Origin: Sulfolobales archaeon
Lineage (GTDB): Archaea > Thermoproteota > Thermoprotei_A > Sulfolobales > NBVN01
NCBI GenBank assembly: GCA_026413885.1
Contig: JAOAKA010000002.1
Span: 62,001 to 126,000, forward strand
Direction: 5' to 3'
DNA: 64,000 bases
Shown: positions 46,629-61,025 of the stretch, in pieces
How the letters are laid out: each line of letters begins with the position of its first letter
How positions within the stretch are numbered: position 1 is the stretch's first letter
Position numbers and translations under genes: made by a program
The notes under the pieces: model-generated
The model's database searches: none
Seen by the model: the letters and a program-made list of their open reading frames with translations, nothing else
Told to the model about the DNA's origin: nothing

Positions 46629-47096
46629 TTAACTACCTACTCTCTCTAGAATCTTCTTAACAGCTTTAAGAATATTCACATAGCCTGTACATCTACATAT
46701 GTTTCCAGCTATAGCTTTCCTTATCTCATCTACGTTTCTCACTCCTCTAGCTAGTGCGGCATATATAGTGACGAGAAATCCCGGAGTGCAGTAACCGCAT
46801 TGAATAGCTCCTTCTTCAAGCATAGAATCTACTATTACCTTACCGAGCTCTGTCTGCGCTATGTGGTCCGGTGTAGTGACTTCAGAACCATCTACCTTAG
46901 CAGCTACGACTAAGCACGATGGTACTGGTTCTCCATCGAGTAGAACTGTGCATGAGCCGCACTCTCCCACACCGCATCCATACTTCACACTCCTGACTTT
47001 CAGTCTGTCTCTGAGAACATTTAGGAGAGTTTCATGGGGTTCCACGTAGACCTCAGTAAATACCCCGTTTAGCTTAAACTTGATCTTCACTTTCAC
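46629..47096 (-). CDS. Molybdenum hydroxylase small subunit, 2x[2Fe-2S]
   Basis: 155 residues. First cluster in the plant-type fold (KYGCGVGECGSCTVLLDG ... PSCL), second in the helical domain (IQCGYCTPGF ... GNICRCTGY). All eight cysteines are present. It passes electrons between the Mo centre and FAD in the heterotrimeric enzyme. GTG start overlaps the medium-subunit gene by 4 bp. Last gene of the operon. Confidence 0.95.
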   Translation of the reverse strand: MKVKIKFKLNGVFTEVYVEPHETLLNVLRDRLKVRSVKYGCGVGECGSCTVLLDGEPVPSCLVVAAKVDGSEVTTPDHIAQTELGKVIVDSMLEEGAIQCGYCTPGFLVTIYAALARGVRNVDEIRKAIAGNICRCTGYVNILKAVKKILERVGS

Positions 47097-47992
47097 ACAC
47101 CTATCTTAAGTAATCTTTCGTAAGCTCTCCACACTGCGTCACTAACGAGAGTTTTCGATGCCTGAAGTCTATACCAAGCAGTAGATCTAGCGTCATCTAT
47201 TGGAGATATCTCATTCACAACTCGCTCTGAAGCCACTCTAGCAGCTTCTTCTATCTTTAGACCGACTATAGACCTCTCTACACCTCTAGCTCTTACCGGT
47301 GTAGGAGCTACAGAACCCAGAGCCACTCTAGCATCTACTATGTAACCATCTCTAGCGTCTAAGAGAACAGCTACACTAGCTTTAGCTACATCAAAAGAAG
47401 TTCTCCTAAGCTTGATGTAGCTCCAGCCGAATACGTTTCGACTCACCGGTATCCTTATAGAGCGCAGTATCTCCCCTCTCTCGAGCACAACTCTCTTTGG
47501 TCCGGTGAAGAACTTCTCAATGGGGACTGTTCTCACCCCCCTCAACGACACTAACTCCAGTTCAGCGTCGTAAACTAGTAGTGGTGGAGCTGTATCTGCT
47601 GCAGGTGAAGCAGTACATAAATTACCACCTATAGTAGCTAAATTCCTAATCTGCCAGGACCCAAGAGACTCTGCGGCTTCCACTAGTAGAGGTAACTTCT
47701 CTCTAGCTATACTGCTCTCCACTATTTCTTGAATAGTTACCGCACTACCTATCTCTACGTAGCTGTCTTCAAGCTTAATGAATCTCAACTCGTCCAACCT
47801 AGAGATATCGATTAAAGCTCTTACTTCGATACGCCTATACTTCAAATCTACAACTAAGTCGGTACCGCCAGCAACCACTTTAGCACCTTCAACTGATTCG
47901 AGGAGTTTAAGTGCTTCACGCAGATCTCTCGGTCTATAGTAATCGAATATCTGTGGAATTCTGTAGGTATTGAAAGCGTTTATAGAGAGCAT
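47093..47992 (-). CDS. Molybdenum hydroxylase medium subunit, FAD-binding
   Basis: 299 residues. FAD-binding motifs AKVVAGGTDLVVDLKY and ATIGGNLCTASPAADT are present, with the C-terminal CO_deh_flav_C-like domain. It carries FAD and delivers electrons onward. ATG directly after the large-subunit stop and 4-bp overlap with the small subunit gene, so all three are translated together. Confidence 0.94.
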   Translation of the reverse strand: MLSINAFNTYRIPQIFDYYRPRDLREALKLLESVEGAKVVAGGTDLVVDLKYRRIEVRALIDISRLDELRFIKLEDSYVEIGSAVTIQEIVESSIAREKLPLLVEAAESLGSWQIRNLATIGGNLCTASPAADTAPPLLVYDAELELVSLRGVRTVPIEKFFTGPKRVVLERGEILRSIRIPVSRNVFGWSYIKLRRTSFDVAKASVAVLLDARDGYIVDARVALGSVAPTPVRARGVERSIVGLKIEEAARVASERVVNEISPIDDARSTAWYRLQASKTLVSDAVWRAYERLLKIGV

Positions 47993-50329
47993 CTACTCAC
48001 CTTCTTTAATGGCTTTAAGTATTTTCTCCGGCGTCATAGGTATCTCGTAGAATCTGATGCCCGTAGCGTTATAGATAGCGTTAGCAACAGCAGCAATCAC
48101 CGGGTTGGAGGCTGCCTCACCTAAGCCTTTAGCTCCAAAGGGTCCAAATGGTTCATAAGTCGAAGCAAATAGCACTATAAAGTCTTCATCACTCGGTAAG
48201 TCCATAGATGTAGGTAGTTTGTAATCTGTTAAACTCATCCTGTGAGCTGGCACCCCATTCTCGAGGTAGGATACTTCATCACCAACAGTCCAACTCCATC
48301 CTATGGCGAAACCTCCGTGAATTTGACCAGCTGCTAGCTCTGGACTTATGACTGTACCTATATCGGCACCAGCAACTACTCTAATAGGCTTAATCACTCC
48401 TGTCTCCATATCTACTTCAACTTCTACAAAGTATACTGTAAAACTAGGTGGAGCTACTGTAGCTCTATAGCTAACCGACGCTGATATAGAGCCCCAATTT
48501 CTCTGCCAAGCAACTCTAGCTACTTCACTTAGTGTAATCCTCTTCTCGGGAGCACCCTCAACAAATATGACAGCGTCACTTAGCTCTCTATCGTACTCGA
48601 TTCTCAGAGCCTCCGGGCTCACCGAGTCTAGTATTCTCGAAGCATATTCTAAGACCTTCTTCTTAACCTCTAGAGCAGCTCTTCTAGCAGCTTCACCACC
48701 AGTAAAAACTCCTCTAGACGCATGTGTACATACGTCATAGACAGTCGTAGACGTACCAGACCACACAACCCTCACCTTACCAGGCGGAATCTTCAGTTCT
48801 TCAGCAATGATTTTAATGTGTGCGTCTAGAGTTCCACCACCGTGGTCCTGGAGAGCTGTGATGTAGTCAATAGATCCATCCTCATTTACCTTAACTACAG
48901 CACCTGTGTAGTCTATGATGGCTCCAGACAGAGGTCCTCCAGCCCCAGATGTGTGAAAGCCTCTTCCAACACCTACGCCCCTTCTAAACCTACCGGTCTT
49001 AACTCTAGGACTCTCTCTACGCTTCCACCCTATTATCTCGGAGCCTTTAGCAATTAGTTCCGGTACCCCGTCACTCCTGATTATAGACTTAACTGTAGGT
49101 CCCTGACCCCAGAATATCTCCCCTCTCCCTCTGTAGTTAGCTAATCTAAACTCGAGAGGGTCTATCTTCAACTCCTCCGCTAGCTCATCAACAACTGTCT
49201 CGACAGCCCACGTAATTTCTGGAGCTCCGTAACCACGTATAGCACATGAAGGAACCTTATTTGTATATACAGACCTCCCGTGGTATTTAACAGCTCTCCA
49301 CTTGTATAGTGAGACGAACCACCCTAGTGAAGTACCGAGGATAGGGTACGCCTGTATCTGGTGAGCTCCCACATCAATTAGGTTATCTAACTCTCCGAAG
49401 GTTATCGAGCCATCTCTAGTTGCTCCAGCTCTAACTTTCATATAGAATTCGAAGCTAACGTGGTCGTGGACCATGTCTTCTTCTCTAGTTAACACTAGCT
49501 TCACCGGCTTTCTAGATTTAAGACATAGACCGACGGCTATCAGAGTAACTAAGTTTGTATGGATACTGGACCCGAATCCTCCACCGAGCAATACTTTCCT
49601 AACATCAACTCTGTTCATAGGTATTCCGTAGACTTGAGAAATCAATATCTTAGTGTTGTGAATTGTTTGAGTAGTAGTCCACACTACCAGTGTTCCATCA
49701 GGCTCTAACTTGCAGACAGCTCCCTTAGGCTCTAGTTGTGTGTGATATCTTCTAGAAGCATGAAATTTCCTCTCTATGACGACGCTCGACCTCTTCTCTT
49801 CAGAGTCTAAGTCGCCTTCAGAATACCTAAGTTCAGCAGCAATGTTATTCTTAACTTCTATCCACCGACCGCCCCTCATAACCCTCTCGTGAATAGGTCT
49901 AGTGCTAGGAGACATAGCTTTGAAAGGGTCTAGAACAGGGTCATAGACTTCCTCAAAATCCACTCTGAGAGCTTCTAGTGCTCTCTGAGCAGTATCTTCA
50001 GTAGGAGCAGCGACAGCAGCTATAGGTTCACCAAAGTATCTAGGCACTTTAGTGAGGACCCTCCAGTCCTTAAACGTATCTTCCTCTATGCTAATCAATC
50101 TAGGGTTGAACAGCCTGTCTGGGACGTCATCCGGAGTTAGAACAACCGCTCCTAAAGCTTCAGCTCCAGAAGCATCTACCCTCCCAACTCTAGCAAAAGC
50201 GTGAGGACTCTTAAATATCCTTCCATAGAGCATCCCCGGGACCTCGACATCAAATGTAAACTCAGCGAGTCCAGACGCTTTAGCGAAGCCGTCGTGCCGT
50301 GGAAAACTTCTTCCTATAAAGTTAAACAC
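47993..50329 (-). CDS. Molybdenum hydroxylase large subunit (xanthine dehydrogenase family)
   Basis: 778 residues. Mo-pterin motifs: VLLGGGFGSS, RGYGAPEITWAVE and the catalytic-Glu region GAKGLGEAASNP. The AYRCSFR active-site loop of aerobic CO dehydrogenase is absent; the equivalent is SCAIRGYGAPE, as in xanthine/nicotinate/aldehyde-oxidising members. Together with the divergent XdhC and cyclic amidohydrolase genes, this suggests hydroxylation of a purine or other heterocycle. GTG start after GTGGTCAG. First gene of the L-M-S operon. Confidence 0.94.
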   Translation of the reverse strand: MFNFIGRSFPRHDGFAKASGLAEFTFDVEVPGMLYGRIFKSPHAFARVGRVDASGAEALGAVVLTPDDVPDRLFNPRLISIEEDTFKDWRVLTKVPRYFGEPIAAVAAPTEDTAQRALEALRVDFEEVYDPVLDPFKAMSPSTRPIHERVMRGGRWIEVKNNIAAELRYSEGDLDSEEKRSSVVIERKFHASRRYHTQLEPKGAVCKLEPDGTLVVWTTTQTIHNTKILISQVYGIPMNRVDVRKVLLGGGFGSSIHTNLVTLIAVGLCLKSRKPVKLVLTREEDMVHDHVSFEFYMKVRAGATRDGSITFGELDNLIDVGAHQIQAYPILGTSLGWFVSLYKWRAVKYHGRSVYTNKVPSCAIRGYGAPEITWAVETVVDELAEELKIDPLEFRLANYRGRGEIFWGQGPTVKSIIRSDGVPELIAKGSEIIGWKRRESPRVKTGRFRRGVGVGRGFHTSGAGGPLSGAIIDYTGAVVKVNEDGSIDYITALQDHGGGTLDAHIKIIAEELKIPPGKVRVVWSGTSTTVYDVCTHASRGVFTGGEAARRAALEVKKKVLEYASRILDSVSPEALRIEYDRELSDAVIFVEGAPEKRITLSEVARVAWQRNWGSISASVSYRATVAPPSFTVYFVEVEVDMETGVIKPIRVVAGADIGTVISPELAAGQIHGGFAIGWSWTVGDEVSYLENGVPAHRMSLTDYKLPTSMDLPSDEDFIVLFASTYEPFGPFGAKGLGEAASNPVIAAVANAIYNATGIRFYEIPMTPEKILKAIKEGE

Positions 50330-50412: not shown

Positions 50413-51765
50413 ATGGGTATCTTACTTCGAGGTGGAGCTCTAGTATTCAGAGATGCGGTAATTGAGGCTGACATCCTGGTCGAGAACGGAAAGATCGCTA
50501 AAGTGGGTAAATCTATAGATTCCGGCTACTCTAGAACTGTAGACCTACGCGGTAGGCTCATACTGCCTGGGGCTGTCGACCCCCATATACACGGTAGAGA
50601 GCCTGGATTAGAGTATAAAGACGACTTCTACCACACAACTAGAGCTGCTGTTCTAGGTGGTGTAACAACAGTTCTCGATATGCCGAATACAGTACCACCA
50701 GTCGATAGTCCGTCTAGACTTCTGGAGAAGAAATTCCTTCTCTCCAGAAAATCGCACACAGATTTCGCACTATACGCAGTTCTCTACGACTACAGCAGTG
50801 ACCTAGAGACAAACATCGTAGAGCTAGTTAGAAGTGGTGCTATAGGGTTTAAAGCATTTATGGCTCAAACGACTGGAAACTTACCCCCACCCAGCTTCAA
50901 AACTATTTACACCGCACTTGAACTATCTCAGAAGCTCGGCTTCACAGTTGTTTTTCACGCAGAAGATAGAGAGTGTGTAGAATTCTTCACTTCTAGAGTT
51001 TTAGCGAGTGGAGGAGATAGTTTGAGAGCACATAGTGACTCTAGACCACCGCTCTGTGAGAGACTGAGTATTGAACACATAGTGTCTATAGCTGAAGCAG
51101 TAGGAGGTAGGGCCTACATAGCTCACTTAAGCACCGCATCAGCTCTGAAAACAATTAAGAGACCTAGGAGGAGTCCCACGGAAATCTATGTAGAAGTAAC
51201 ACCAACATATCTCTTCTTCGACTACGAGAAACACGGAAATCTCGGCGCGCTGGTTAAAGTCAATCCACCTGTGAGAGACAGTAGAAATAGAATGAAACTC
51301 TGGAGAGCGATCTCTCGCGGACTCGTAGATGTGGTGGCAACAGATCACGCACCACATGCTGAACACGAGAAGAAAGTTGAGTTCTCGAAGGCTGCGGCTG
51401 GTGTGGCTTCTATACAACACCTAGTTCCACTCATGCTGACATCTGCTCTAGAGGGAGCTATACCTATAGGTAGAGTTGTCGAACTCTGTTCTGAGAATCC
51501 AGCTAAGATTTTCGGACTCTATCCTGTAAAAGGCTCGCTACTCCCAGGTTCAGATGCCGATATAATTGCTGTGGATCCATCAGCTGAATACGTAGTTTCA
51601 GAGGAGACGCTCGAATACAAGAATAAGCTTACACCGTACGTAGGGTGGAAACTGAAGGGGAAGATAGATAAGGTATTCCTCAGAGGAGAACTAGTAGTAG
51701 ATAGAGGGACTATTGTAGTAGATAGACCTTCTGGGAAGCCTCTGGGTAGGGAAGCTAAGCGATGA
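50413..51765 (+). CDS. Cyclic amidohydrolase (dihydroorotase/allantoinase/hydantoinase group)
   Basis: 450 residues. Metal-binding DPHIHGREPG (HxH), the carboxylated lysine in GFKAFM, VFHAED, AHLSTA and the last metal-ligand block VATDHAPH. REPG with ATDHAPH is closer to dihydroorotase than to allantoinase, but no other pyr genes are present and the neighbours are a Mo hydroxylase and XdhC. Ring opening in purine or heterocycle breakdown is therefore the alternative. Its stop overlaps a small frame at 51762. Confidence 0.9.
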   Translation: MGILLRGGALVFRDAVIEADILVENGKIAKVGKSIDSGYSRTVDLRGRLILPGAVDPHIHGREPGLEYKDDFYHTTRAAVLGGVTTVLDMPNTVPPVDSPSRLLEKKFLLSRKSHTDFALYAVLYDYSSDLETNIVELVRSGAIGFKAFMAQTTGNLPPPSFKTIYTALELSQKLGFTVVFHAEDRECVEFFTSRVLASGGDSLRAHSDSRPPLCERLSIEHIVSIAEAVGGRAYIAHLSTASALKTIKRPRRSPTEIYVEVTPTYLFFDYEKHGNLGALVKVNPPVRDSRNRMKLWRAISRGLVDVVATDHAPHAEHEKKVEFSKAAAGVASIQHLVPLMLTSALEGAIPIGRVVELCSENPAKIFGLYPVKGSLLPGSDADIIAVDPSAEYVVSEETLEYKNKLTPYVGWKLKGKIDKVFLRGELVVDRGTIVVDRPSGKPLGREAKR

Positions 51766-51854
51766 ATGCAATGAAGCTTACACTGTGTCTCCAGCAGACC
51801 TCATACGATATTTACTTGGAATCACTCCTAACGAGGGATCGAGTCTGTGGATGA
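51762..51854 (+). CDS. Possible 30-aa coupled peptide
   Basis: ATG overlaps the stop of the amidohydrolase gene (ATGA), and the stop overlaps the XdhC start region by 8 bp. The peptide is 30 residues (begins MNAMKLTLCLQQ). The double overlap looks like translational coupling, but the region also carries a TATA-like GATATTTAC that would serve XdhC alone. Weakly supported. Confidence 0.25.
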   Translation: MNAMKLTLCLQQTSYDIYLESLLTRDRVCG

Positions 51855-52716
51855 AGTCCTTATCTCAGCTATACTCGACTACTTGAAGAATGGGATGAGG
51901 GTAGCTCTGTGTGAGATAGTCAATAAGGAAGGCTCCGCTCCAAGAGACGTTGGTGCTAAGATGGTTGTCGGTGAAGACGGCCGCAGGGTGGGAACAGTTG
52001 GCGGTGGACTATTTGAAGCAGAACTAATTTCAGACGCAGTTAAAGCTATTTCAGAAGGTAGGTCAAAGTTGGTGAAATACTCATTTACAGATAAACCAGT
52101 GGAGGGAGCTAGGGAAACCGGGCTTATATGTGGTGGGGTTCTCTGGGTATTCATAGATGTTTTTACACCAACTCCGAGAGCTATAGTCATCGGCTTGGGA
52201 AATGTGGGGAGACCTCTACTAACTATTCTAAAGCTCGTAGGCTTCGAACTGGTAGTACTAGATACAAATAGAGATCTAGAAGTTGCTAGTGAGTTAGGTG
52301 TTTCTTCAGTATTTGTAGGGGTAGTAGATGAATTAGTGAGTAAGGTGCGGGAATTAGTTAGAAAGAGAGACCACGTATTTGTTGTCTACGGCGATATAGA
52401 CGCGGACTACCTATTCGTTAGAGAGTCTCTAAAAACTGAAGCTGAAGCAGTCTGGCTTCTTGGGAGTAAGAGAAAGGTGTACGAGTTTGTTAAAAAGCTT
52501 GCATTAGAAGGCTTCAACTTAGACGACGTAGCTAGAAGACTGAGAGCACCTATAGGTCTAGATATAGGAGCAGATACCCCGGAGGAGATCGCAGTAAGTG
52601 TTGGAGCTGAGCTAGTAGCTCTAAAGAGGGGTGTGAAAGCAGAAAGCCTCAATATAGTGCCTAAGATAGTGGCGGATCTACTGAGAGACGATGCAGGTAA
52701 GTCTTTCACTAACTAG
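51847..52716 (+). CDS. XdhC/CoxI family Mo-cofactor chaperone
   Basis: 289 residues. N-terminal XdhC domain (GSAPRDVGAKMVVGEDGRR, GTVGGGLFE), linker, then a Rossmann domain (AIVIGLGNVGRPL) and the C-terminal RLRAPIGLDIGADTPEEIAVS signature. XdhC binds and sulfurates Mo cofactor for xanthine dehydrogenase-type enzymes. GTG start. Strong support that the operon at 46629-50329 is a molybdenum hydroxylase. It lies downstream of the amidohydrolase gene on the same strand. Confidence 0.93.
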   Translation: MDEVLISAILDYLKNGMRVALCEIVNKEGSAPRDVGAKMVVGEDGRRVGTVGGGLFEAELISDAVKAISEGRSKLVKYSFTDKPVEGARETGLICGGVLWVFIDVFTPTPRAIVIGLGNVGRPLLTILKLVGFELVVLDTNRDLEVASELGVSSVFVGVVDELVSKVRELVRKRDHVFVVYGDIDADYLFVRESLKTEAEAVWLLGSKRKVYEFVKKLALEGFNLDDVARRLRAPIGLDIGADTPEEIAVSVGAELVALKRGVKAESLNIVPKIVADLLRDDAGKSFTN

Positions 52717-54506: not shown

Positions 54507-55793
54507 CTATTTAGAGAGGTTTTCAATCTCACTTAACCTATTCTGTCTATCTCTAAACACATCACCAACTTTCTTATTGTTGCTCACAGGCTGACCTCCT
54601 CCCAGCAAACAGCCCCTAGGACACAGTTCGAAGACTGTTGCTCTCTCTATTTTTATTTTCTGAAGATCTGTCAGAGAGTTTATCTTGGGTAGCTCGATCT
54701 TTCTATATAGTACGTAGTCTGGATTCTCGTCTCTCAGAGAGTGATAGTCCAGCTTCTTAAGAGCTATCTGAATCTCTCTAGCAGTTAGAACTCTAGGAAG
54801 CACTCTCTTCCAAGAAGTACACTGTGTTATGTACGCAGTTCCCGGCGGGATGCTCACTCTGACTTCAGCAATCTCTAGGTCAGGTAGTGTTTTCTGAAGC
54901 AGTAATTTCTCAGCAGGCGATCTAGCTACTAGAACGCTCTTCTCTGCATCAATAACGCTTAGGGGGTCGTAGATTGTCACCCTCTTAAAACCTAGAGCTC
55001 TGAGGCCGCTGACGACTTGAAGTGGGGTTAGTCCTTCAGCTTCAGATATAGATGCTAGAACCTCCGGCTCTACATACGCCTCCACTACGAGTCTTTTTCT
55101 AGCTTCTGCTAACACTCTATCTACATCTAGTCTATAGGAAACAGCACCGGCGGGGCAATATGCTGCACAGAGACCACAGTAGACGCAGTTTGAATTAGCT
55201 AGAGATTCTCCAAATGGTGTAGAAACAAGGGTTTGAATACCTCTATGAACGTAACTCAGTACTTTAGCTCCCACTCTAGAGCATAACTCAATACATCTCC
55301 CACAGACGAAACACTTAGACTGATCGAACCAGATTGGGCCACCGTTAATTACTTTAGTCTCTCTCTCTACGTAGCTAAATCTCTTCCTATATGCTCTTAA
55401 TTCAAAACCTAGCGCAGTCTTCTTAACCAGCTCTAAAACCTCAGCTAGCTGTATTGGACAACCCCGCAGATAGTAATCTACTTTAACAAAGCTGCCTATA
55501 GGTTTAGAAACCCCTGCTGCTCCCTGCACTCCACCTAGATGTGCACATGAACCTAAGGCTACAAGGTATTTAGCCCTACCTCTAACTTCGTAGAGTAGTC
55601 TTACATCTCTCTCACTAACTACAGAACCTTCAACTAGAGCTACATCGACTTCCTCTAGCTCTCTCGATATGCCGGCTAGAGGCCAGTATACTATTTCTAC
55701 TCCAAGTTGTTCTAAGAGATTGAAGAAGTCTCTATTTACTAAATTGTATTCACAGCCGTCGCAGCCTGTTAGAGCTACTATTGCGAGTTTCAC
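54507..55793 (-). CDS. NiFe-hydrogenase small subunit fused to ferredoxin and degenerate FeFe H-domain
   Basis: 428 residues from GTG 55793, one base after the large-subunit stop. Domain 1 (1-130) is a NiFe small subunit: proximal-cluster cysteines C11, C14 (TGCDGCEYN), C83 (GSCAHLGG), C112 (RGCPI). Domain 2 (155-218) holds two [4Fe-4S] clusters (CFVCGRCIELC, CVYCGLCAAYC), joined by the RGIQT linker seen in FeFe hydrogenases and NuoG. Domain 3 (220-428) resembles an FeFe-hydrogenase H-domain: AYVEPEVLASISEAEGL, LRALGFKRV, a TQCTSW remnant of the TSCCPxW motif (C325), and an intact third motif CPRGCLLGGGQP (C391, C395). The middle MPCxxK motif is missing. No known H-cluster can be assembled, so electron transfer is the likely role. 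Confidence 0.9.
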   Translation of the reverse strand: MKLAIVALTGCDGCEYNLVNRDFFNLLEQLGVEIVYWPLAGISRELEEVDVALVEGSVVSERDVRLLYEVRGRAKYLVALGSCAHLGGVQGAAGVSKPIGSFVKVDYYLRGCPIQLAEVLELVKKTALGFELRAYRKRFSYVERETKVINGGPIWFDQSKCFVCGRCIELCSRVGAKVLSYVHRGIQTLVSTPFGESLANSNCVYCGLCAAYCPAGAVSYRLDVDRVLAEARKRLVVEAYVEPEVLASISEAEGLTPLQVVSGLRALGFKRVTIYDPLSVIDAEKSVLVARSPAEKLLLQKTLPDLEIAEVRVSIPPGTAYITQCTSWKRVLPRVLTAREIQIALKKLDYHSLRDENPDYVLYRKIELPKINSLTDLQKIKIERATVFELCPRGCLLGGGQPVSNNKKVGDVFRDRQNRLSEIENLSK

Positions 55794-55794
55794 T

Positions 55795-57072
55795 CTACTC
55801 CACCCCTCTAACAATGTGTACCGCGCACGGGATGCATGGGTCATATGCTCTTACAAGAGACTCCACCAGCTTGCGGATGGCTTCCTCACTAGCACTGTCA
55901 GTGATTAGCTTTCTAACTAGTGCTGTAGCAGATAGCTCTATGTGTTCAGTATTCATAACTGTTGGAGTAACTATATCTGCTCTCGTAACTCTCCGATCTC
56001 TACTGACTTCATAGTAGTGTATCAGCAATCCTCTAGGAGCTTCAACAACACCTAGTCCAGCAGATGCTACCTTATTTGTGAGAACCGGCTCAAGCTTTAA
56101 CTCTCTATGCGATAACTCATCTATACTCTGGATTAAGGAGTCCAACACGATCCTTGATTCAAGTGCTTTAGCATAGATATTAGAGTACGGATTCTCTTTC
56201 AATACTCCCGCATATCTAACTACATATTCTCTCTCACTGCTGTCGAGACCTCCATTCTTTAAGGTGCTCAAAAGCCTCGCTCTCGAGCCGACGTGGAAAA
56301 CTTCATCTATGAAGAGACATTTCCTGCTGTTAGAGTAGTCAGTCCGACGCTCCTTGAAAACCTCTCTGTAGTTATCTGAAGTAACGTAGACATTTCCATT
56401 CGGTGTATCGAGATAGTAGGGTGGGGATCTAGGTATAGTGGTTTTAACAGATTCTGTAAGAGCTGCGTAGAAGGGTGCTGGGTCGGCAATCTCTGGGAGC
56501 TTAATGTCGAGAATCTTCGCTGTAAGGTCTTCGAGTAGAGGTTTTGAAGCTCTGAGTAACTCCACAGCTGACTTTAGCACTCTGGAGTTTATGTAGGTAA
56601 AGAATCTGCCCATAAAGTAGTTGTTTGGTGATGTAAGTCTACCACAGATAAGTCTTATAGCTTTAGTTACGTAGCTATTGATTTCTAGAGTAATCTTCGT
56701 GATGTAATCCAGCTCGTTTTTACCTATATGATCTGGTGCGGCCAATACCCCCAGATGAATTACGTGGTTTTGAACTAACCCTAACTTATTGCATATATCT
56801 CTGAGTTCTGCGATGTCTTTCGATGTCTCTACTCCAGCTATTTGTTCAGCAGCAATAGCAGCAGCCCAAAAGTGGGGGTGGCTACATACTCCACAAATTC
56901 TTGAAGCTATTAGTGGTACTTCACCAATGTCTCGCCCAATAACTAAGCTCTCGAAACCTCTCAAACTGAGTAGGGAACTATATGAGACTCTGACGAGTCC
57001 TCTATCTAGAGCTACTTCTACTTTAGATTCTCCAGCAACTCTATCTACTTCCCAGCCTAGTAGTCTACTTAT
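55795..57072 (-). CDS. NiFe-hydrogenase large subunit (group 3-like)
   Basis: About 425 residues. Both NiFe-binding motifs are intact: RICGVCSHPHF and the C-terminal DPCIPCAVH, giving four cysteines. The N-terminus WEVDRVAGESKVEV is clearly homologous to the family's RIEGH region, but the frame has no ATG, GTG or TTG upstream of it. The only canonical start is TTG 56964, inside the conserved region. GAGGTGA lies 6 nt before an ATA at 57072, which I take as the probable start. The conserved Glu of RIEGH is Ala. Only six residues follow the last motif His. Read after the HoxU-like gene (8-bp overlap). Confidence 0.88.
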   Translation of the reverse strand: MSRLLGWEVDRVAGESKVEVALDRGLVRVSYSSLLSLRGFESLVIGRDIGEVPLIASRICGVCSHPHFWAAAIAAEQIAGVETSKDIAELRDICNKLGLVQNHVIHLGVLAAPDHIGKNELDYITKITLEINSYVTKAIRLICGRLTSPNNYFMGRFFTYINSRVLKSAVELLRASKPLLEDLTAKILDIKLPEIADPAPFYAALTESVKTTIPRSPPYYLDTPNGNVYVTSDNYREVFKERRTDYSNSRKCLFIDEVFHVGSRARLLSTLKNGGLDSSEREYVVRYAGVLKENPYSNIYAKALESRIVLDSLIQSIDELSHRELKLEPVLTNKVASAGLGVVEAPRGLLIHYYEVSRDRRVTRADIVTPTVMNTEHIELSATALVRKLITDSASEEAIRKLVESLVRAYDPCIPCAVHIVRGVE

Positions 57073-57718
57073 CTCTACTCACCTCAGAAATTATCTTCTT
57101 CAACTCCCCCGGGAGAAAAGACCAGAAGAACTTAGCAGCTGCTTCTAATTTCTCTCCATCTACACCGTGTTTTTCATATAGGTCCCTCATGGAGTCTCTC
57201 CAGAGCTCCGGGTCTTCTATATAGCCTCTACACCCCAAGCAGGGAACTCCATTACGTGTACACTCAGCTGAGCAGCCGGCAGCAGTTAGAGGGCCTAAAC
57301 ACGGCTCTCCCTTAGCAACTAGACAATCGTCTCCAGTGAGAGGACACTCAGAGCAGACTGGGAATTCCCCGAGATTTAACTGCTTTGAGAGATCTAGAAG
57401 AGAGCAGCTAGTCTTCCTTAAACAACTCCAACACTTAATTCTATGGGTTGAGAGGAGGAGCTGGAAGTTCATCCTCCTATATGTATCTAGCTCCCTACTC
57501 TCAGTCACTATCTTAGCTCCATCAGATACTGGGAACTTACACGCAGGCACTACTCTACCGTTTACTAAGACTACGCAGAGTCTACAGGTAGCCTCACTAA
57601 AGAAGTCATTGAGGTAGCACAGCACTGGGACTCTATATCCAGCTTTTTCAACTGCTTCTATTATAGGGACACCGGGAGGTACTTCGACTTCTACTCCATT
57701 AACGTATACTTTAACCAT
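57065..57718 (-). CDS. NuoG/HoxU-like iron-sulfur subunit
   Basis: 217 residues. N-terminal plant-type [2Fe-2S] domain (cysteines 34, 45, 48, 60) and the His-Cys [4Fe-4S] motif THRIKCWSCLRKTSC (His92, Cys96, 99, 105), followed by further cysteine pairs (CSECPLTGDDC; CLGCRGY). It connects the flavin subunit to the hydrogenase. Starts 3 bp after the NuoF-like gene. Short relative to NuoG because the molybdopterin-like domain is absent, as in HoxU. Confidence 0.92.
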   Translation of the reverse strand: MVKVYVNGVEVEVPPGVPIIEAVEKAGYRVPVLCYLNDFFSEATCRLCVVLVNGRVVPACKFPVSDGAKIVTESRELDTYRRMNFQLLLSTHRIKCWSCLRKTSCSLLDLSKQLNLGEFPVCSECPLTGDDCLVAKGEPCLGPLTAAGCSAECTRNGVPCLGCRGYIEDPELWRDSMRDLYEKHGVDGEKLEAAAKFFWSFLPGELKKIISEVSRDK

Positions 57719-57721
57719 ATC

Positions 57722-59542
57722 CTACACCTTCTTAATTGCTCCGAAGGGACATGCGATTAGACATTGACCACACTTAATGCAGATGTCGTAGTTTATTCTA
57801 TGGACTTCTCCCGGAGAGCCGGATATAGCTCCTACCTGGCAGACTCTAGCACACTGTGTACATCCTCTACATAGAGCTGGATCTACTGAATACTTAACGA
57901 GTTTAGCACAGACTTTTGCTGGACATCTTCGGTTAACTACGTGTTCTACATACTCATCTTTGAAGTACCTCAACGTCGAGAGTATCGGATTGGGAGCAGT
58001 TCCACCTAGCGCGCAGAGACTCGATCTAGCTATACTTTCACCTAGTTCTTGAGCTACCTCTATATCTTCTAGAGAAGCTTCTCCACTAGTGAGTCTCTCT
58101 AGTAGGTCACTTAAGTGTCTCATACCGACTCTGCAGGGCAGGCACTTACCGCATGATTCAGCGAGAGTGAAGCTTGTGAAGAATTTAGCTACATCCACCA
58201 TGCAGTTGCTGTCGTCTATCACTACCAGACCTCCAGAACCCATAATAGCTCCATAGCTCTGCAGGCTCTCGTAATCCATCTCGAGGTCCATTAACTCAGC
58301 TGGAATGCAGCCCCCGCTTGGTCCACCTATTTGAACAGCTTTAACTTTCCTTCCCTCTATAGATCCTCCAGCTAGATCGAAAACTAACGTCTTTATCTTT
58401 GTTCCAATAGGTACCTCGTAGACTCCAGTCCTCTTTACAGCACCTGTAACACAGAACATCTTAGTTCCTCGAGACTTCTCAGTTCCGTGCTTTACGAATT
58501 CTTCAACACCAGTCTGAAATATAGTAGCTACATGTGCTAAAGTCTCTACATTGTTGATGACGGTAGGCCTGCCCCAGAGTCCGTGAGTAGCTGGGTAGGG
58601 AGGTCTCTGTCTAGGTCTAGATCTACCTTCGATAGCAGCTATTAGAGCTGTTTCCTCACCACATACGAAAGCACCAGCACTTCTATAGACTTCTACATCG
58701 AAGTTGAAGTTGGAGCTGAGAATGTTCTTCCCTAGAAAACCGAGCTTTCTGGCGTCTTCAACAGCTTTCTCAAGTCTATCGGCCATGAGTGGTTTTTCAG
58801 CTCTTACGAAAATTATCCCTCTAGTAGCTCCAACTGCGTAGCCAGCTATTATAAGTCCTTCTAGAACTCTATGTGGGTCTGATTCCGCTAGAAGTCTATT
58901 CATAAATGCTCCAGGATCTCCTTCATCACCGTTACATATGACATATTTAACGTCGTTCTTCTGCTCGTACGCTATCTTCCACTTTAGCCAGGTTGGGAAT
59001 CCAGCACCTCCTCTACCTCTTAACCCAGAGGTCTTAATGACCTCTATGACTTCTTCCTGCTTCATGTAGAGGGCTTTCTTAAGTCCTAAGTAACCGCCTG
59101 TCTCTATGTAGTCGTAGATCGACTCAGGGTCTACTAGTCCGCAGTTTCTCGATACATATCTAACTTGATATCTCCAGAAATCTACTTCTTCTAGTGCCGG
59201 CGGTCCCCCGGACCCTGTTTTAAATCTAACTGCGGTAGCTTCTGAGAGATCTCCCTCGGAGTAATTCTTAATTATGTGCTCGATCTGCTCAGTCTTCACG
59301 TTTCCATATATAGCTGGCGGCAGGCCTTCTCTAGCTAACTCTATCCACGGATCCATGAAGCACAGACCTGTGCATCCTACTCTATATACCTCGGCATCCA
59401 CTCCGTGTTCTTCAACGACTTTAATGACTTTCCTGTATACCTCTCCCGCTCCAGCTGCTAGAGTGCAGCTCGATATAGGTACTCTAATTCTAAAGCCTCT
59501 ACTGCCGTACAGAATTCTATTTAGAGAAGTTTGTGTGAGCAT
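57722..59542 (-). CDS. NuoF/HoxF-like FMN and NAD(P)-binding subunit with ferredoxin tail
   Basis: 606 residues. N-terminal thioredoxin-like [2Fe-2S] domain (about 20-100, CTLAAGAGEVY and GCTGLC); NuoF core with GRGGAGFPTWLKWK (176-189), CNGDEGDPGAF and SAGAFVCGEETAL for FMN and NAD(P)H; SLBB region; cluster motif SCGKCLPCRVG. Then a C-terminal two-[4Fe-4S] ferredoxin (CRGCTQCARVC, CIKCGQCLIAC). This architecture is that of HydB-type electron-bifurcating or bidirectional hydrogenases. Read 19 bp after the NuoE-like gene. Confidence 0.96.
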   Translation of the reverse strand: MLTQTSLNRILYGSRGFRIRVPISSCTLAAGAGEVYRKVIKVVEEHGVDAEVYRVGCTGLCFMDPWIELAREGLPPAIYGNVKTEQIEHIIKNYSEGDLSEATAVRFKTGSGGPPALEEVDFWRYQVRYVSRNCGLVDPESIYDYIETGGYLGLKKALYMKQEEVIEVIKTSGLRGRGGAGFPTWLKWKIAYEQKNDVKYVICNGDEGDPGAFMNRLLAESDPHRVLEGLIIAGYAVGATRGIIFVRAEKPLMADRLEKAVEDARKLGFLGKNILSSNFNFDVEVYRSAGAFVCGEETALIAAIEGRSRPRQRPPYPATHGLWGRPTVINNVETLAHVATIFQTGVEEFVKHGTEKSRGTKMFCVTGAVKRTGVYEVPIGTKIKTLVFDLAGGSIEGRKVKAVQIGGPSGGCIPAELMDLEMDYESLQSYGAIMGSGGLVVIDDSNCMVDVAKFFTSFTLAESCGKCLPCRVGMRHLSDLLERLTSGEASLEDIEVAQELGESIARSSLCALGGTAPNPILSTLRYFKDEYVEHVVNRRCPAKVCAKLVKYSVDPALCRGCTQCARVCQVGAISGSPGEVHRINYDICIKCGQCLIACPFGAIKKV

Positions 59543-59561: not shown

Positions 59562-60068
59562 CTACTCTCTAGCTTTAGATCTATAGTTGAAAACCAGTCT
59601 TCTACCTGCTTGTGGTGTGAGTTTTCCATGTACGTATCTCTCAGAGCCGTCTGAAGATAGAACCATAGCTACTGGAGCTAGACTGCAGCAACCAAAACAT
59701 CTAGCTTTCTCAACTGTAAGCAAGCCATCTTCTGTAGTCGATCTTCCATTTGAGAGTCCAGCACTTCTTCTTATAGCTTCATATACTTCAGAAGCACCGC
59801 GGAGATAGCAAGCAGTACCGAAGCAGACGTAGATGATGTACCTACCTACAGGCTCTAATCTAAATTGGTGGTAGAATGTAGCTACATTGAGAACTTCGGA
59901 GAGGGATACCCCCAACTTCTCTGAGACTTCCTCGAGACTCTCTCTCGGTAGGTATCTAAAGGTCTTCTGAATTTCTTGAAGTATCTGCACCAGCCTGCCT
60001 CTATCGCAGCCGTACTTAGAGACTACTTCACCAACTACTTCTCTCGGGTTCAGGCGCCCCCTATACAT
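59562..60068 (-). CDS. NuoE/HoxE-like [2Fe-2S] subunit
   Basis: 168 residues. A helical start (LVQILQEIQKTFRYLPRESLEEVSEKLGVSLSEV) and a thioredoxin-like domain with cluster cysteines in CFGTACYLRGA and CFGCCSLAPV. It is the first gene of the hydrogenase operon. ATG with GGAG about 6 nt upstream. The 66-bp region before it is very AT-rich (several TTAATT elements), so it must hold the operon promoter, but I cannot pick one TATA box. Confidence 0.94.
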   Translation of the reverse strand: MYRGRLNPREVVGEVVSKYGCDRGRLVQILQEIQKTFRYLPRESLEEVSEKLGVSLSEVLNVATFYHQFRLEPVGRYIIYVCFGTACYLRGASEVYEAIRRSAGLSNGRSTTEDGLLTVEKARCFGCCSLAPVAMVLSSDGSERYVHGKLTPQAGRRLVFNYRSKARE

Positions 60069-60134: not shown

Positions 60135-61025
60135 TCAGACCTTCGGGAAGAAGTATTTACACCTACAAGCTCTATTTCTAACACATCTACCGAGTACTAG
60201 CTCAGATATTCTCGTAGCTAAGTACTTCACACTTCTACAGATTTCTGACGCACAGTTTACTTCCTCTAGTAGGTTGAGGATCTTAATCACATTATTTACA
60301 GCTACTTCAACATCTTGTAGTAGTGTGGCACTTATCGCAGCTCTCGCTATCTCCAATATCCTCAGTAGATTTGAGTCACTACTCAACTTACTCTGGTCTG
60401 CTGTTATTAAGAGGTCGAAGATCTCTTTAACGTACTCTATAGATACAGCTAGATCTAGAGCTTCATAGGAGTCTAGAGAGCCGTCAGCAACACTCTGCTT
60501 TAAGCTTCTGAGAAAGTATAGGTACTTCCTATAGAACTCTCTATATGTTACTAGTGCTGAAGGATCTCGCTCCTCTATATTCTCAACTAGCTTACTTGAA
60601 GTCGCCTCCATAGTCTTCAGCAGGGAGACTAAGTCTGTTTTAACATCTGAGAAAGCTAGTTCATGTGTGTCTAAATCTGGATTCGCTATTAAGATAAAGC
60701 TAGTAACGTAGTTCTTTAGCTCCTCAGACAGTTTTAAAACATGTTCGTATTCTGCTTTTAACTTAACTCTAGTTACTCCCTCTACATATGACGCTACCAG
60801 CTTTCTAATAGCTATACTAGAGCTATCTAACTCTACTAATACGTTAACTTCCTCATTTTGCTCACTACTTGCTGTAGGTGATACAGTTATCTTAGACCCA
60901 TCGAAGTGTAGCAGCACTCTGTCTCCAGGTTTGATGCCTAAAGCGTCAGCCCATCTTTTTGGAACCACTATCGATAGCGAGCCTCTACCGACAATATTTG
61001 CTTTCTTAACTAAGCGCTCAGACAT
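60135..61025 (-). CDS. AbrB-PhoU domain regulator
   Basis: 296 residues. A SpoVT-AbrB DNA-binding domain (KANIVGRGSLSIVVPKRWADALGIKPGDRVLL, about 8-40) precedes two PhoU-type helical bundles, the archaeal layout of a phosphate-response regulator. The end contains a cysteine group (CVRNRACRC) that is unusual and may bind metal. ATG start 33 bp after a TATA box. No phosphate transporter is present nearby, so its targets are elsewhere or are the hydrogenase operon that follows. Confidence 0.9.
   Translation of the reverse strand: MSERLVKKANIVGRGSLSIVVPKRWADALGIKPGDRVLLHFDGSKITVSPTASSEQNEEVNVLVELDSSSIAIRKLVASYVEGVTRVKLKAEYEHVLKLSEELKNYVTSFILIANPDLDTHELAFSDVKTDLVSLLKTMEATSSKLVENIEERDPSALVTYREFYRKYLYFLRSLKQSVADGSLDSYEALDLAVSIEYVKEIFDLLITADQSKLSSDSNLLRILEIARAAISATLLQDVEVAVNNVIKILNLLEEVNCASEICRSVKYLATRISELVLGRCVRNRACRCKYFFPKV

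Follow-up and report, generated by a model that had tools for sequence, protein, structure and literature searches.

The DNA examined here (the window, 64,000 nucleotides from a Sulfolobales archaeon) raises the question of why one open reading frame should carry sequence from both [NiFe] and [FeFe] hydrogenases, which are unrelated enzyme classes, and what the part of [FeFe] origin would do in the protein. The answer we favor, at a probability of roughly three in four, is that the locus encodes a soluble NAD- and ferredoxin-linked [NiFe] hydrogenase of the electron-bifurcating type, in whose ancestor the HydA and HydS subunits exchanged halves once to give chains that would now interlace. A preliminary description of the gene at 54507-55793 had proposed that one chain fuses a NiFe small subunit with an F-domain of two clusters and with a degenerate H-domain. 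This is borne out by matches to PF01058, to HydA1 and to known structures, with the amendment that the small subunit it named is present as its N-terminal half only. Table 1 lists the features of the locus.

Table 1. Features of the hydrogenase locus (window coordinates; all on the minus strand; residues are numbered within each protein)
Feature	Position	Description	Supporting match or ligands
HydC	59562..60068 (-)	168 aa, NuoE-like thioredoxin-fold [2Fe-2S] protein	PF01257, E 2.9e-41
HydB (BfuB)	57722..59542 (-)	606 aa	near full-length match to bifurcating HydB
An-Sc chimera	57065..57718 (-)	217 aa, HydA N-terminus + C-terminal half of NiFe small subunit	
An domain	57368..57718 (-)	An-Sc residues 1-117	putative [2Fe-2S] C34, C45, C48, C60; putative His/Cys3 [4Fe-4S] H92, C96, C99, C105
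Sc domain	57068..57367 (-)	An-Sc residues 118-217	Cys 122, 125, 132, 140, 149, 153, 160, 163
HydL	55795..57072 (-)	NiFe large subunit, group 3b-like; 425 aa if start is ATA 57072	
Sn-Ac chimera	54507..55793 (-)	428 aa, GTG start	
Sn domain	55383..55793 (-)	Sn-Ac residues 1-137, proximal-cluster half of NiFe small subunit	C11, C14, C83, C112
F-domain	55134..55382 (-)	Sn-Ac residues 138-220, two putative [4Fe-4S]	C161, C164, C167, C171, C203, C206, C209, C213
Degenerate H-domain	54510..55133 (-)	Sn-Ac residues 221-428	profile match to HydA1 across L1, L2, L3
Ser292	54918..54920 (-)	at the place of the first H-cluster Cys (motif L1)	
Cys325	54819..54821 (-)	motif L2 remnant (TQC)	aligned to MPC of HydA
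Motif L3	54591..54623 (-)	Sn-Ac residues 391-401, CPRGCLLGGGQ	C391, C395

Two start calls exist for the Sn-Ac gene, ATG 55844 (445 aa) and GTG 55793 (428 aa); since the former merely adds 17 residues that overlap the end of the large-subunit gene, we take the GTG as the right start, and the 428-aa version agrees with the orthologs and with the residue numbering of the preliminary description. Pfam places PF01058 at the N-terminus of this protein (residues 11-124, E 1e-21) and 4Fe-4S dicluster domains in mid-chain, and the single sequence matches NiFe small subunits as well as HydA1. The family profile aligns the Sn part with residues 3-156 of Pyrococcus furiosus sulfhydrogenase I (SHI) delta (9nez) at E 2.2e-36, and in structural superposition the AlphaFold2 model of this part fits over 135 residues at 1.6 Å (Z 20.7). 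The F-domain matches HydA1, residues 145-291 in the 445-aa numbering aligning with 8a6t at E 1e-28. The protein has exactly 15 cysteines, four at the proximal-cluster positions, eight in the F-domain and three in the H-domain, and all 15 are invariant in an alignment of 18 Sn-Ac orthologs; here as in the partner protein below, cysteines are assigned to clusters by homology. The fusion signal is far beyond chance, and Sn-Ac is confirmed as a fusion in which the N-terminal half of a NiFe small subunit, with its proximal-cluster ligands, precedes the F-domain and shrunken H-domain of a HydA-type protein. A search of 60 relatives showed that many genomes from the same family and order have full-length or near-full-length orthologs, and an assembly or annotation artefact as the source of the chimera is ruled out by the occurrence of the same architecture in many independent genomes.

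The missing halves of both parents lie in a nearby gene, 57065-57718, that the preliminary description had passed over. Residues 5-124 of its product, An-Sc, match HydA1 (7q4v, E 1.5e-21) and residues 118-198 match SHI delta 160-241 (9nez, E 2.9e-19), while Sn-Ac holds SHI delta 3-156 and HydA1 from about residue 121 onward. The breakpoints thus fall at about residue 120 of HydA and about residues 157-160 of the small subunit, with each half present once. The NCBIfam models are divided in the same way: FeFe_A6 is covered over model positions 1-120 in An-Sc and 133-265 in Sn-Ac, and sulfhyd_HydD over 163-255 in An-Sc and 7-96 in Sn-Ac. Because the HydA1 and SHI delta stretches are complementary, and the NCBIfam split agrees, An-Sc and Sn-Ac are reciprocal chimeras, and the complex has neither a whole HydA chain nor a whole HydS chain. 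A structure comparison that covered residues 1-118 of the An-Sc model matched An to 8a6t_A 3-120 (Z 13.6). The model is weak in the Sc half (pLDDT about 50), which is what would be expected of this half without its partner and is not proof of pairing; the assignment of Sc comes from its sequence. An-Sc also has exactly 15 cysteines, of which four would bind the [2Fe-2S] cluster, three (with His92) the His/Cys3 cluster and eight two [4Fe-4S] clusters; the last, by homology, are probably the medial and distal clusters of the NiFe small subunit. All of these ligands (15 Cys and His92) are invariant in 15 sequences.

What remains of the H-domain is recognizable mainly through its family. The H-domain part of the single sequence matches HydA weakly (phmmer, E 0.001) and the family profile is needed, which reaches HydA1 at E 1.7e-34 across the F-domain, L1 and L2 and in a second stretch at L3 at E 2.7e-8. 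In the AlphaFold2 model residues 221-428 have pLDDT values mostly of 80-95; the Sn-Ac model superposes on HydA structures with Z 20-23, and residues 150-428 (aligned from 152) fit CbA5H over 257 residues at 3.0 Å (Z 20.4), so that profile and superposition both give Sn-Ac the sequence and fold of a group A [FeFe] H-domain. The likeness that had been suggested for residues 220-428 to the FeFe H-domain families was therefore found with the family profile but not with PF02906, which has no significant match in Sn-Ac or anywhere in the 1.3-Mb genome; TIGR02512 scores 72.7 bits on Sn-Ac, below its curated cut-off of 405.95. The domain is far shorter than that of HydA and lacks the segment in which the HydA L021 has its IFGRTGGVMEAALR motif.

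The HMMER alignment changes the reading of the first two H-cluster motifs. TQCTSW had been described as an altered first motif and the second motif as absent, but '..vlitqCvarkk..vlTarElqkllkk' of the family profile lies opposite HydA1 PCIGKK..VLTTRELARMIK, which makes it L2; the window sequence here is TQCTSWKR..VLTAREIQIALKK, with the Cys (C325) retained and Met, Pro and Lys replaced by T, Q and W. The preceding stretch, laivprSeaekkll..yPel, lies opposite HydA1 MFTSCCPSWILAVEKFYPEL, and since the window reads ARSPAEK at the L1 position, the first H-cluster Cys is replaced by Ser292 and the item lost is the L1 Cys. TQCTSW as motif L1 is ruled out by this profile alignment and by intermediate sequences. 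In the profile alignment of 16 swapped sequences, which includes more distant members, the L1 residue is Ser in 15 and Cys in L025; unswapped HydA has Cys there. The third motif was correctly described as kept, with its invariant Cys: C391, C395, G394, G398, G400 and Q401 are all invariant. C325, C391 and C395, whose numbering in the preliminary description was also right, are invariant in the 18 orthologs and in the 16-sequence alignment, and are the only Sn-Ac cysteines outside the standard cluster sets. Three of the four H-cluster cubane Cys are therefore present and the fourth is Ser292.

From these changes we conclude that the diiron site has been lost and that no H-cluster is to be expected in Sn-Ac; an intact one is ruled out by the missing PF02906 match and the changes in L1 and L2. 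It is extremely improbable that a catalytic H-cluster persists and gives the complex two kinds of H2 site, since the intact L3 has to be set against the loss of the L1 Cys and the L2 Lys, the lack of a PF02906 match in the whole genome and the finding that none of the 60 relatives has HydF above the cut-off, a weak indicator given that HydF is also missing in genome G276 despite an intact-looking HydA. By analogy with a bacterial complex described below, the H-domain most likely keeps a side-branch [4Fe-4S] cluster on C325, C391, C395 and perhaps Ser292, although three Cys and one Ser would be an unusual ligand set for such a cluster. That the domain binds no cofactor and is a structural remnant holding the complex together seems unlikely to us: of the four cubane ligands one has gone, residues of the diiron pocket have changed and the domain is much shortened, without the IFGRTGGVMEAALR region, but C325, C391, C395 and the GxG(Q) loop are invariant in 18 orthologs, and these three are the sole cysteines of the chain beyond the standard cluster sets.

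The chimeras belong to a five-gene operon in the order HydC, HydB, An-Sc, HydL, Sn-Ac. HydB has an N-terminal cysteine domain, an FMN/NAD domain, NADH_4Fe-4S and a C-terminal region with CPAKVC and two [4Fe-4S] motifs; it aligns almost from end to end with bifurcating HydB/NfnB (9n5u_B, 664 bits; 7t2r_B, 640 bits), whereas plain NuoF chains match only its middle (380 bits). The best PDB matches of HydC are likewise HydC/NfnC of bifurcating complexes (9n5u_C, E 1.9e-41; 7t2r_C, E 8.8e-32), and its C82, C87, C124 and C128 are likely the ligands of the C1 cluster. The locus thus has a BfuB with N- and C-terminal cluster domains and a HydC with its four [2Fe-2S] Cys, as in NiFe-Bfu complexes, and by sequence both subunits appear to be of the bifurcating type. 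HydL matches PF00374 (E 2.9e-29) and is nearest to the group 3b alpha subunit (SHI alpha 5yxy, E 3e-37 over 9-422), with nickel-ligand motifs RICGVC and DPCIPC and both CxxC present. It has no ATG, GTG or TTG in frame upstream of TTG 56964, and its homology extends beyond that codon to about 57048; a start at ATA 57072, or an assembly error in 56964-57072 (-), would fit. No SHI-type beta or gamma partner subunits occur in the window operon; the NiFe maturase HypD is present in the genome. Immediately upstream of the operon on the same strand is a MazE/AbrB-fold regulator-like gene (60135-61025 (-)). Elsewhere in the window, 47093-50329 (-) encodes flavin and molybdopterin subunits of a xanthine/aldehyde/CO dehydrogenase-type enzyme, near which lie a likely hydantoinase (50413-51765) and a likely XdhC-like gene (51847-52716), both named by eye only.

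In the enzyme we propose, the NiFe site of HydL would be the sole place where H2 is split or made, whichever direction the reaction may take in vivo. From there electrons would pass to the proximal cluster in Sn-Ac, the medial and distal clusters in An-Sc, the His/Cys3 cluster in An-Sc, the F-domain cluster in Sn-Ac, the [2Fe-2S] cluster in An-Sc and then the FMN of HydB, and from the FMN to NAD and, via HydC and the end domains of HydB, to ferredoxin, which would amount to bifurcation. Because this path would cross between the chimeras several times, An-Sc and Sn-Ac should form an interlaced, obligate pair. The cluster of the C-terminal H-domain would be a side branch. That the complex is instead a plain NAD-linked (Hox-like) hydrogenase we consider doubtful: tight coupling cannot be shown by homology, and in the more distant member L109 HydB stops short of the C-terminal ferredoxin domain, but the window HydB retains both terminal cluster domains, which are absent from plain NuoF, and HydC retains its four Cys.

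A close known counterpart of the proposed bifurcating enzyme is NiFe-HydABCSL (NiFe-Bfu) of Acetomicrobium mobile, which has HydB, HydC, the HydA cluster domains and NiFe S and L subunits in common with the window complex. There, HydS and then HydA carry electrons from the NiFe site to the HydB FMN (PMC8880783, PMC9304861), and a [4Fe-4S] cluster, A5, which terminates a side branch, stands where HydA would have its H-cluster (PMC8880783). In A. mobile HydA and HydS are individual chains, and in the window both are cut and recombined; A. mobile HydS has one cluster, whereas the window small subunit has ligands for three, and the C-terminal HydA domain of the window is still recognizably an H-domain. 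SHI delta and alpha (9nez, 5yxy; group 3b) are among the best matches of the small-subunit halves and HydL, but SHI delta is one chain where the window small subunit is split, and the partners in the window are HydB and HydC rather than SHI beta and gamma. HydA of HydABC (8a6t, 7p5h; group A) has the same An, F-domain and H-domain fold, which in the window are spread over two chains, with the L1 Cys lost, L2 changed and the H-domain shortened.

A GTDB genome scan found 17 full-length Sn-Ac loci, mostly in genomes named as Desulfurococcales, Sulfolobales, Ignisphaera, Thermofilum or Thermofilaceae, with one in an Archaeoglobales bin. At every one of the 17, An-Sc adjoins Sn-Ac or lies close to it, HydL lies between them in 16 (the exception is L041), HydB and HydC are upstream wherever the contig extends far enough, and the order C-B-AnSc-L-SnAc is kept in most of these public loci and also in L109 and L113. 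Among 398 genomes of the phylum, 20 have a full-length An-Sc with an E value no higher than 1e-70; the match that follows reaches 1e-43 and covers part of the model. In the HydB tree the 28 swapped rows form one clade (98/92), to which the unswapped L110 is sister (100/100), on a long branch and with unusual composition. Several individual loci deserve mention. In L114 (L041, 1052-8021) An-Sc adjoins Sn-Ac, followed by a second, ordinary S-L hydrogenase pair and an 826-aa ferredoxin-containing protein. The Archaeoglobales bin (L030, genome G433) has FtsZ and lacks Cren7, and its HydB is nested among those of Sulfolobales and Desulfurococcales, which could reflect either lateral transfer or a mis-binned contig. 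The Sn-Ac of L109 (7987-9525, also L025) is swapped and has PCC (L1), GPCTGRK (L2) and CPKGC (L3), which leaves the ligand set of the H-cluster nearly complete, and its genome has no HydF above the cut-off; L115 (7910-9724, L021) has an apparently intact HydA with TSCCPAW, MPCTSKK and a full L3, and no HydF passes the cut-off in its genome, which is of the same phylum.

L110 is an unswapped C-B-A-S-L operon, and L111 and L112 show A-S-L, their HydA genes adjoining ordinary NiFe S and L genes. HydA in these loci is An, F and H in one chain and HydS is Sn plus Sc; this HydA has the four cubane Cys and lacks the proton-transfer Cys (AEC or PAC for SCC). The unswapped proteins map onto the chimeras with no overlap and no loss beyond a few residues: in L110, S 3-160 corresponds to Sn, S 163 to about 214-222 to Sc, A 9-130 to An and A 140 onward to Ac, and L111 HydS has the same Sc half (residues 163-222). 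The chimeras could be two unrelated gene fusions, and the gene order did change as well (A-S-L to AnSc-L-SnAc), so that more than one step is possible; we judge this unlikely, however, as in each parent the two cut points agree to within a few residues, no segment is missing or duplicated and the pair occurs together. A single reciprocal exchange could have given both chimeras at once if the Ac-Sn block had been excised from A-S-L as a circle, which would leave An-Sc on the chromosome and close Sn-Ac on the circle, and if the circle had then re-entered after hydL to give AnSc-L-SnAc.

Fusion hybrids of [FeFe] and [NiFe] hydrogenases were reportedly found in ten archaeal orders by Greening et al. 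in 2024, and other papers cite that work (Cell 187:3357) for archaeal [FeFe] hydrogenases and for a potential coexistence of [NiFe] and [FeFe] domains. These hybrids reportedly likewise have [FeFe] and [NiFe] parts fused in archaea; the window locus very likely belongs to this kind, and an [FeFe]-[NiFe] fusion as such must count as known. The results of the present analysis are the reciprocal exchange, the corrected placement of L1 and L2, the replacement of the L1 Cys by Ser and a sister operon that is not swapped. A bolder reading, which we hold to be somewhat less likely than not, is that one ancient, in-frame and lossless reciprocal exchange between the neighboring genes hydA and hydS, its interlocked chimeras fixed in several archaeal families, is so far undescribed, and that a [4Fe-4S] cluster held by three Cys and one Ser occupies the former place of the H-cluster.

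For annotation, either chimera gene taken by itself resembles a known subunit that is cut short or otherwise aberrant, and automatic tools may label the HydA of L110-L112 as [FeFe] hydrogenase group A. Gene fusions are common, but it is unusual for two subunits of unrelated enzyme classes to exchange halves reciprocally and in frame and for the products to become fixed and stay together. The hosts of these chimeras are hot-spring archaea in which an iron-iron active site would have decayed within a [NiFe] enzyme, and the archaeal series, from a HydA with four cubane Cys beside an ordinary HydS (L110-L112) through a swapped form with a near-complete ligand set (L109) to the decayed form of the window, makes it testable how an [FeFe] active site may be lost while its protein stays on as wiring.
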